Of a DNA stretch of 60,235 nucleotides, positions 37,568 to 53,205 are shown in pieces. Source of the stretch: Methylomonas sp. (GTDB taxonomy: Bacteria > Pseudomonadota > Gammaproteobacteria > Methylococcales > Methylomonadaceae); the NCBI GenBank assembly GCA_026989395.1, contig JALSJK010000105.1, positions 1 through 60,235 of the forward strand, given 5' to 3'. The translations under genes and the position numbers were made by a program. Each line of letters starts with the position of its first letter. The first letter of the stretch is position 1. The notes below the pieces were generated by a model, which was not told the origin of the DNA, made no database searches, and saw only the letters and a program-made list of their open reading frames with translations.

Positions 37568-39547
37568 ATGAAAAGTAAAGACCTGAAACCATTAAAAGTT
37601 TCGCTACATGGCATGGATGAACGCATGCAAAAAATGATGGCGAACTATTTAAGACTCCCATGTAGAGGCACTGCTATTGTGGTCCTTGATGACGAGAAAG
37701 CTCATGCAGAAATTGTTGATGTCGATTTAGCCACATCTGAAACCATCCTAGAAGACCGGCTAAAAACAAGCGCCCCCAAGCCAATTATTGCTTTATCCCT
37801 GAACCCGATATCTAAAGCGGGCGTAATCTATGTTAAAAAACCAATTCAAGTCAAAGAAGTATTGGCTGCTTTTAATCGTGCAAGGAATACTATTCTTGGT
37901 AAAGAAACATTAGAATCACCTCTAGACTTCTCTGACACAAGCTTCCAATCTACACCTAAAAAAACCCCAGACAAAATTCAAAAACCTACTGATTTAAAAA
38001 TTCAGCAAAATAAGGATCCCGCTGATTTTATTGCCGAGGCGATAAAAAAATCACAGTCGCCACAAATGAAAAAAGCTGAACAACAAATTTCAGCTGAGAA
38101 AAAAAATAGAGCTCAAATCGAAAAAAAACTTCAGCCTTCTGAAATAAATCAAACCCCAGAAAACGCAGAAAATACCTCAATTACTCAAAAAAATTCAGTT
38201 GCTACAGAACCAGAAACACCTGAATTTCTTATTTCTGAGACGGCCAAAGAACCCTTTCCTCCCCTTTTACCAGAAGAAACCAGCAAAAACGAAATAACTC
38301 AAGAACCTAAACATACTATAAAGCCTGAGAAAAAAAAGACTAAACCAGTCCCTGCACCTCCAGTACATTTCTTAAAAAAGAACAAAAATAAAGGAAAAAA
38401 GACTGTTACAGAAAAACCAAATAAGCAGACAAAAGACATAACGCCCGAAACAGCAAAACCAGCCCCTCAGTTAAAACAAGAAACTACTAAACCTACCACT
38501 TCAACTTCAACTTCAACTTCAACTTCAACTTCAACTTCAACTTCAACTTCAAAAAGCCTATCAGATAATAAATTCCTAAGTAGTTTTTGGCAAAAAAAAG
38601 CAGTATTTTTGGGGGCTGCTGGTTTAATTCTGCTAATAGCTATCGTCCACTTTTTTCAGCAAACTCCATTATATGAAGCTAGAGCACGCATCCTGATTGG
38701 AAATGGAAACTTAAAAAATATTGATCTTACATCACCGCCAAAAACAATCCTGGAAAAAAGCGTTATTCAGAAAAAAACGGATGAGATCCTATCTAAAAAA
38801 CTAGCAAAACGTGTCATTTTGGGTTTGCAACTCGGCACTACGCCAGAATTTATTAAAGCCTCAGACATTCCCAATGAAAAAATAGAATCTGCTTCAAGAT
38901 TAAGGGAAGAAAGATTAGCGGCAGAACGCCTTTCTAATATGGTTGATTATTTTCTTAAAAATCTTAAAGTAACCCAATACAAAAACCATCCAATTATCAA
39001 CGTTACCTACCTCTCAGAAGAACCCGAATTGGCGAGCAAGATAGTTAATCGATTAATTGAAGAATATCTTGCCATTCAAGAGGACAAAAAAGCAGCGCAA
39101 ATGACTGAAATTGCAGCATGGGAAAATAACAAACTCCCATTGGCTAAAAATAAACTAAAGCAATCTCAAGATGCGCTAGCGCTATATATTGAAATGAACA
39201 AGTGGTCTCAATTTGAACAGCAATTTGCTGAAGATATGGGAGTGAATTCTGAAATTCGTAGTTTAGAAAAAAAGGTAAAAGCCGATCAATCCTTATACGA
39301 AATAATGCTTCAACGCTTTGAAAAACTAAAAAATAACTCCGATAGATACGAAGTAAAACTATTAAGTAGTGCCGAATTGCCCGTAGAACCCAGCTACCCA
39401 AATAAACCACGTTTCATATTTTGGTCAGTAATAATTGCCACTTTATTTGCAATCATCTTAACTGCAGGACTTACAGTACTCAGTTTATTAAAAAAAGAGA
39501 AACAGCCGCCAACACAATCAGATGAAGTGATGAAAAAAGCAGCTTAA
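37568..39547 (+). CDS. Wzz-like chain-length protein with receiver-like N-terminal domain and (TS)9 linker
   Basis: Three parts are visible. Residues 1-120 form an alpha/beta domain whose end (PIIALSLNPISKAGVIYVKK, then KEVLAAFNRAR) resembles a response-regulator receiver domain. Residues about 120-345 are a charged, Lys/Pro/Glu-rich low-complexity linker ending in nine Thr-Ser pairs. From about 346 comes a Wzz-type domain: TM1 (AVFLGAAGLILLIAIVHFF), LYEARARILIG, coiled coil, PSYPNKPRFIF and TM2. There is no C-terminal tyrosine kinase. It probably controls exopolysaccharide length or export. No polysaccharide genes are adjacent. The receiver resemblance is by eye. Confidence 0.75.
   Translation: MKSKDLKPLKVSLHGMDERMQKMMANYLRLPCRGTAIVVLDDEKAHAEIVDVDLATSETILEDRLKTSAPKPIIALSLNPISKAGVIYVKKPIQVKEVLAAFNRARNTILGKETLESPLDFSDTSFQSTPKKTPDKIQKPTDLKIQQNKDPADFIAEAIKKSQSPQMKKAEQQISAEKKNRAQIEKKLQPSEINQTPENAENTSITQKNSVATEPETPEFLISETAKEPFPPLLPEETSKNEITQEPKHTIKPEKKKTKPVPAPPVHFLKKNKNKGKKTVTEKPNKQTKDITPETAKPAPQLKQETTKPTTSTSTSTSTSTSTSTSTSKSLSDNKFLSSFWQKKAVFLGAAGLILLIAIVHFFQQTPLYEARARILIGNGNLKNIDLTSPPKTILEKSVIQKKTDEILSKKLAKRVILGLQLGTTPEFIKASDIPNEKIESASRLREERLAAERLSNMVDYFLKNLKVTQYKNHPIINVTYLSEEPELASKIVNRLIEEYLAIQEDKKAAQMTEIAAWENNKLPLAKNKLKQSQDALALYIEMNKWSQFEQQFAEDMGVNSEIRSLEKKVKADQSLYEIMLQRFEKLKNNSDRYEVKLLSSAELPVEPSYPNKPRFIFWSVIIATLFAIILTAGLTVLSLLKKEKQPPTQSDEVMKKAA
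38498..38551 (+). repeat. hexanucleotide tandem repeat (ACTTCA)9
   Basis: Nine perfect copies of ACTTCA inside the Wzz-like gene encode nine Thr-Ser dipeptides of the linker just before the first membrane helix. Because the unit is 6 bp, copy-number change alters linker length without breaking the frame. Confidence 0.95.
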
Positions 39548-52135: not shown

Positions 52136-52823
52136 ATGAATAATTCTGTCAATATTGAGCAAGATAAAAAAAGCAATAATATTTTGCTCATTCTAGGCGT
52201 TGCTCATTCTAGGCGGGATTTTACTCACTATTTTGCTCTCTGTCGGCATCACCATCTGGATAATCAACTCTTATTTTTTTCCCAGCCAATTTCAGCCAGT
52301 TGAACTTAATCAACAAGAAAACCAGAAACTAAATCAAAAACTATCGCAATTTAGCTGGTTAACCGGCAATCCAGCTAATACAACAAAGCAAACCAAACTT
52401 GAACCTGAAAAATACTCAGAACAAGGTGCAACAAGAGAAATCAGTCTGACAGAGCGTGAACTTAATGCGCTTTTGGCCAAAAATACCGATCTGGCAGATA
52501 AACTGGCTATTGACCTGTCAGAAAATATGGCTAGCGGCAAACTGCTAATGCCTATGGATGAGGACTTTCCGGTTCTTGGCGGCAAAACTATCAAAATATC
52601 TGCAGGTATGGAGCTTGCATTCGCAAATAACAGACCCATTATAAAACTGAAGGGAGTCAGCATCATGGGAGTCCCAATTCCTAATGCCTGGTTAGGTGGA
52701 CTGAAAAATGTCGATCTTGTTAATGAGTTTGGCCAGGATGAAGGATTCTGGAAAGCTTTTGCTGATGGTGTCAAAGATGTAAATATTGCTGAAGGCAATT
52801 TAATTATCAAACTCAAGGAATAG
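52136..52823 (+). pseudogene. membrane-anchored protein gene frameshifted by a 16-bp tandem duplication
   Basis: The ATG at 52136 reads MNNSVNIEQDKKSNNI and then enters a 16-bp unit TTGCTCATTCTAGGCG that occurs twice (52184-52199, 52200-52215). The second copy shifts the frame to an early TGA. Removing one copy gives one uninterrupted protein of about 223 residues: short charged N-terminus, a membrane helix (LLILGGILLTILLSVGITIW) and an extracytoplasmic domain (SLTERELNALL, FPVLGGKTIKISAGMELAF, GVPIPNAWLGGL). As is, only a TTG at 52200 could start the long part. I do not recognise the family. Confidence 0.75.
52184..52215 (+). repeat. 16-bp tandem duplication, two perfect copies
   Basis: TTGCTCATTCTAGGCG is repeated head to tail without spacer. 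Sixteen is not a multiple of three, so it shifts the reading frame of the gene it lies in. Confidence 0.97.
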
Positions 52824-52893: not shown

Positions 52894-53205
52894 ATGAGTA
52901 CAAAAAATGATTTATTAGCTAAAGTTCAGGAAACCATTGAAGAACAATCAGCCAAGCTGGAACAATTGAAAGAAAAAGCACTGGATGAATCCAGTGATGC
53001 TCTGGATGATATCAAGGAGTCCATCAGCGCTCTAGAGCCAAAACTGGAAGAAGCCAAAGCCAAGGCTATGGAAATAGCTGACGCGGCAGATGATAAATGG
53101 GATGATCTCAAAGATTCCATTGAAGAAGGCTGGGATGAAGTCAGCGCACAACTTGAAGATGGCTGGGACAATCTGACTGATAAAGTTAAAAATCTGTTTT
53201 CTTAA
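52894..53205 (+). CDS. small acidic helical protein (103 aa), unknown function
   Basis: Almost wholly alpha-helical and strongly charged, with amphipathic heptad-like repeats (VQETIEEQSAKLEQLKEKAL, ALEPKLEEAKAKAMEIADA) and a repeated tryptophan-bearing segment (KWDDLKDSIEEGW, GWDEVSAQLEDGW, GWDNLTDKVKNLF). No signal peptide. The layout resembles apolipoprotein-like or stress-related coiled-coil proteins but no family is recognised. The start has an excellent ribosome-binding site (CGGAGGAAATA). It is 70 bp downstream of the frameshifted membrane-protein gene on the same strand. Confidence 0.75.
   Translation: MSTKNDLLAKVQETIEEQSAKLEQLKEKALDESSDALDDIKESISALEPKLEEAKAKAMEIADAADDKWDDLKDSIEEGWDEVSAQLEDGWDNLTDKVKNLFS

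Follow-up and report, generated by a model that had tools for sequence, protein, structure and literature searches.

A perfect 16-bp tandem duplication where the membrane helix begins in a conserved gammaproteobacterial gene

The closest precedent for the 16-bp duplication described here comes from the pneumococcal capsule, where duplications are called reversible in the available portion of one source (PMC4243769); an excerpt of another, which refers to the Waite papers, puts reversion at about 1e-5 or less when the insertion is no longer than nine bp (PMC4022640). Ready reversal is called into question by Xenorhabdus, where tandem duplications of 26-116 bp in lrp stand among loss-of-function mutations under a heading that, in the excerpted text, reads “diverse and not reversible” (PMC6786866), and PMC12817950 has as its subject phase-variable copy number of tandem repeats in M. 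tuberculosis. A frameshifting duplication of the 16-bp kind did not appear in titles among the matches listed for the literature on methanotrophs and tandem duplication; the passages searched in PMC11868660 make no mention of duplication, and those of PMC7694096 include one that is unrelated.

The duplication and the reading frames around it

The window, by which we mean the whole stretch of 60,235 nucleotides that was analysed, is one of the 182 contigs (contig 105) that make up a 3.27-Mb genome of Methylomonas sp. It carries the 16-mer TTGCTCATTCTAGGCG twice head to tail at 52184-52215 with zero mismatches, the sequence and coordinates being those reported in the initial annotation, and Tandem Repeats Finder gives this interval as period 16, 2.0 copies, 100%. 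An exact search of the assembled genome found the 16-mer at these two sites only, and a scan of the window returned the pair as its sole exact, non-composite tandem unit of 10-200 bp. Chance does not explain the duplication: the analytic expectation for exact units of at least 14 bp is about 0.0004 per window, and none of 100 simulated windows (first-order Markov) contained a tandem unit of period 14-60. The window also has a hexanucleotide array, ACTTCA, in 9.2 perfect copies at 38498-38552; this shorter unit sits within a 659-codon frame (37568-39544), and the length of the unit keeps that frame.

The features of the locus are as follows.

52136..52303, + strand: frame from the ortholog-supported ATG, 55 codons, comprising the native N-terminal tail (16 residues) and then frameshifted sequence (frames, ATG position in orthologs)
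52184..52199, + strand: 16-bp unit, copy 1 (sequence, Tandem Repeats Finder, tandem-unit scan)
52200..52215, + strand: 16-bp unit, copy 2, whose first bases are the internal TTG (sequence, Tandem Repeats Finder, tandem-unit scan)
52200..52823, + strand: open remainder, 207 codons, with membrane helix, linker and conserved C-terminal domain of about 131 residues (frames, ortholog alignment, selection)
52894..53205, + strand: downstream neighbour, an sll1863-family stress-response-like protein (7 of 15 ortholog loci, 4 distinct contigs)

The frame that opens at ATG 52136 reaches a stop at 52303 after 55 codons, and a second frame of 207 codons runs from TTG 52200 to 52823. The duplication lies within the true coding frame, and 16 is not divisible by three; the reading frame is thereby lost, and no normal protein would be made. 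The initial annotation had placed the break in the gene at the duplication, by its first membrane helix, and this holds: the frame from ATG 52136 ends early, and relatives do not have the extra 16 nt. Recoding by a frameshift on the run of seven A that precedes the duplication was considered and rejected, as the other frame stops at TAG 52194-52196 inside copy 1.

The gene is single-copy in the genome. An alignment of 12 orthologs opens with a variable tail, passes through the membrane helix and a linker, and ends in a domain of strong conservation; its last 131 residues are gap-free in 10 alignment rows. An sll1863-like gene stands beside the ortholog in 7 of the 15 loci examined (L004/L010, L005/L012, L006/L014 and L011), the paired names being the same contigs counted twice, so that four contigs are distinct; at 1e-6 it was not found in the other eight, L013 among them.

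We consider it probable that a recent, spontaneous 16-bp tandem duplication breaks the gene for a conserved membrane-anchored protein at the start of the membrane helix. The gene, conserved in Gammaproteobacteria, would encode a small protein with a short tail, one membrane helix and one conserved domain, which by the topology that we infer is probably periplasmic; the duplication would have arisen spontaneously where the helix begins, would presumably be carried by most cells and would abolish function. Slippage could presumably delete one of the copies at a low rate, as for any short direct repeat.

The array is exactly 2.00 copies long, and neither flanking base continues the repeat, which leaves no microhomology at the junction; with zero junction homology, the duplication departs from what slippage between repeats already in place would leave in the textbook case. 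Copy 1 shares its first seven bases with the 3' arm (52180-52190) of a short imperfect inverted repeat, and TATTTTGCTC is met again at 52229. A hairpin-driven origin was rejected, since the region folds no better than shuffled sequences (z -0.15).

Orthologs, ancestral state and selection

Orthologs were found in 5/100 other relatives, 7/300 other genomes of the order and 53/368 other genomes of the class, three samples that overlap; with its own genome included, the family is present in 54 of the 369 class genomes searched. The family is patchy, as the figures for the order and for the class illustrate, and loss or horizontal transfer is therefore likely in the methanotroph order. The named relatives closest to the gene come from metagenome assemblies labelled Methylococcaceae, Methylomonas and Methylococcales, and a short contig labelled Piscirickettsiaceae encodes a protein identical to that of the Methylococcaceae-labelled relative. 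On these labels the bacterium is very probably a gammaproteobacterium that oxidises methane.

Comparison with orthologs had been proposed in the initial annotation, and it supports a single copy and an upstream ATG as the state in relatives. The 5' ends were taken from 41 loci, of which 35 contain a Y-x-F-P motif; the six loci without it by the pattern used (L054, L058, L059, L063, L066 and L075) were excluded from the count. An ATG lies 38-50 codons ahead of the motif in 33/35 motif-bearing loci, the two exceptions being the window and the gapped scaffold L014. The latter entered the count as its second scaffold half, and its first half has an ATG 40 codons ahead of the motif (hand count); in the window, the distance from ATG to motif equals 40 codons plus one 16-nt unit (hand count). 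In the DNA alignment, four near relatives share one 16-nt gap at the duplication, with small gaps elsewhere in the variable tail. The internal stop is confined to the window, that is, to one of nine match rows in the order search and one of 58 in the class search; some of the 58 rows are partial (e.g. G322 and G376, with extra pieces in G590, G611 and G660), and further damaged or incomplete copies may be among them. Judged from the sequences, the duplication is derived and private to the window, because the relatives have a single copy, an upstream ATG and no internal stop.

The gene is under purifying selection. For the C-terminal domain, dN/dS is 0.04 between the window and L010 and 0.07 between the window and L014, while dS is saturated against both L012 and L013; over the last 86 codons the window and L014 differ by a dN of 0.025 and a dS of 1.27. 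By hand estimate, and on the assumption that every amino-acid change arose during the dead period, that period would occupy at most about 4% of the branch (last 86 codons, against L014), with whole-domain upper bounds of about 8% (L010) and about 13% (L014, a chimeric contig). These bounds are rough because the synonymous distances are near saturation; roughly, they agree with a recent event. The undecayed remainder of the frame had been read as a sign of a very recent event, and the dN/dS of the domain agrees with this reading provided that the duplication is real.

Alternative explanations

The biology proposed here is ordinary, a frameshift in a conserved gene, and its main rival is an assembly error or a mixed population: the duplication would be an artefact of assembly or library, or the allele of a minority strain taken into the consensus, and the living population would be single-copy. 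We hold this to be unlikely, though to be taken seriously. The genome is split over 182 contigs, the near relatives are metagenome assemblies, and zero microhomology at the junction is the trace expected of an unmerged end-to-end join; the nearest relative, L014, is moreover visibly mis-scaffolded in the same gene, where 10 N stand, the halves overlap and segments resemble different lineages. The site itself, however, contains no N and no other break, and at k above 16 a de Bruijn assembler requires reads across the junction, which counts against an artefact. The window is otherwise well assembled as far as frame coverage alone can tell, 52 frames of at least 100 codons covering 90% of it, and exact tandem units of at least 13 bp are not clearly commoner in this genome than in relatives. 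If both alleles were frequent in reads, the locus would offer a clean test of how fast uncultured bacteria gain short duplications and lose them again.

The ortholog of the nearest relative (L014, 3230-3830) lies on a gapped scaffold, the 10 N separating halves that overlap. In its second half the first 40 residues of the domain are closer to L007 than to the window, and the scaffold is probably a chimeric join. The gap and the overlapping halves fall in this same gene, and the locus can therefore assemble badly.

Translation from the internal TTG would make the duplication nearly neutral, the protein still being made from 52200 with only the 16-residue tail lost; we regard this as improbable. 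The duplication does supply a start codon exactly where the helix starts, this TTG shares its frame with all of the helix and the domain, and purifying selection on the remainder is strong. Against it, the nearest G-rich stretch, AGG, ends 2 nt before the TTG (by eye), too close for a normal Shine-Dalgarno site, and the protein would lose the lysine-bearing tail that precedes the helix; several orthologs likewise have no clear Shine-Dalgarno site at their ATG. The place of the internal TTG is fixed at codon 24 before the motif, and there 30/33 orthologs have neither ATG, GTG nor TTG. The idea that relatives normally start at this TTG, raised earlier as a way in which the gene might prove intact, is ruled out by the upstream ATG present in all 33 orthologs, and the TTG is a poor candidate for a rescue start. 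The gene should be annotated from ATG 52136 as disrupted, and not as a 207-residue protein from the TTG.

A maintained switch, in which one or two copies of the 16-mer turn the gene on or off through slipped-strand mispairing, is very improbable. Reversible duplications within the coding frame are described as a cause of capsule loss in pneumococcus, in the portions available of two sources (PMC4022640, PMC4243769). The present array, however, is exactly two copies with no long tract, as any single duplication would produce, and searches of Pfam, NCBIfam and PADLOC place the gene in no known family. The 33 ortholog genes have few exact tandem units of 6-100 bp, the longest being 9 bp and none resembling the 16-mer; four of them (6-9 bp, in L050, L055, L064 and L067) all lie in the variable 5' tail. 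A switching locus should keep its repeat in relatives, and since the 16-mer is absent there as a repeat, plain mutation is the better reading; we have set aside the phase switch as the main reading on this ground. Contingency loci are expected to have many short units, where this one has two copies of 16 bp, and to retain the repeat in related species, where 0/33 orthologs do so. Of the earlier suggestion that the break is reversible in principle, the part that stands is that a copy could be lost as from any short direct repeat; a selected switch is unsupported.

Duplications elsewhere were surveyed in 61 stretches of the same genome (775,167 bases, window included) and in a comparison set of 673,380 bases from three related genomes. 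The genome itself has three exact units of at least 13 bp (16, 14 and 19 bp), none a multiple of three, and by script two of the three split a frame; the 14-bp and 19-bp units are both on contig C154. The 19-bp unit (L037, 4902-4948) is present in 2.47 copies, with a 9-bp run-on, and splits the type I restriction gene hsdR into frames of 267 and 553 codons, cutting the ResIII domain between profile positions 85 and 88 over the two frames. The 14-bp unit (L037, 2628-2656) lies near the hsd genes, within a frame of 99 codons that stays open across it, and damage to this frame was judged by eye; the 99-codon protein has no match in a Pfam search, and we take it, by eye, to resemble a ParE-type toxin with a changed end. 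No plasmids were found. The related genomes have five units of at least 13 bp, all in one genome: three are near the starts of two contigs, in 2.1-3 copies; a 14-bp unit in ten copies at a contig start was scored as breaking up short frames (72 and 107 codons); and a 20-bp unit is present in three copies. Their two-copy frame-splitting units are of 10-12 bp only and are based on overlapping frames. There is no sign of an excess of tandem units of at least 13 bp in this genome over the three relatives, the numbers being too small to support a claim in either direction.

That reversible duplications of 14-19 bp flip genes off and on (the membrane protein, HsdR and the toxin-like protein) in a standing mixed population is scarcely credible; were it true, such frequent flipping would be a form of phase variation that does without long tracts of repeats, in a free-living methanotroph.

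The protein family and comparison with known systems

The family is that of an uncharacterised conserved membrane protein without a Pfam or NCBIfam name. The 207-residue protein has no Pfam, NCBIfam or PADLOC match at a threshold of 0.001; with a profile built from 12 orthologs, no solved structure was matched at E 1. Searched as sequence profiles only, the 12 members gave six weak Pfam families at E 1, PF09911 (DUF2140, YpmS) not among them, and PF09911 is present in 0/3 genomes searched by the same kind of profile. Two AlphaFold runs on shallow alignments gave models of low confidence (mean pLDDT 56.5 and 51.6; pTM 0.32 for the first). Foldseek with the first model returned nothing at 0.001 or better, the best match being CETP at E 1.4e-3. 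The low-confidence model of the C-terminal domain has as its best PDB matches CETP and YceB, an E. coli lipoprotein (both Z 5.5), and BPI (Z 5.2); Z values of at most 5.5 can reflect just a common arrangement. YceB and the BPI-CETP fold are of the TULIP superfamily, and the model hints weakly at a TULIP/YceB-like C-terminal domain. The likeness to this lipid-binding fold consists in these best, weak matches of the modelled domain; unlike its members, the protein has no sequence match to them, and Z stays at or below 5.5 with a mean pLDDT of 56.5. A membrane-anchored lipid-binding domain is a lead that the model suggests, short of a result.

Among known systems, the simple-sequence contingency loci (slipped-strand phase variation, for example in Neisseria; PMC5084427) resemble this locus in the out-of-frame copy number of a repeat near the 5' end of a gene; they differ in having many short units, whereas here there are two copies of one 16-mer that is not conserved in relatives. 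The Xenorhabdus lrp mutations, in the excerpt available (PMC6786866), likewise include tandem duplication among many spontaneous loss-of-function mutations, but with longer units (26-116 bp). In the pneumococcal capsule (type 3 locus; cap8E, tts; Waite et al., 2001, 2003), as far as the accessible text describes it, the phenotype was followed in culture, whereas here we have one assembled allele of a gene from an uncharacterised family, with no reversion seen; what the capsule genes have in common with the present locus is a short duplication within an open frame by which function is lost, and which in pneumococcus is described as reversible.
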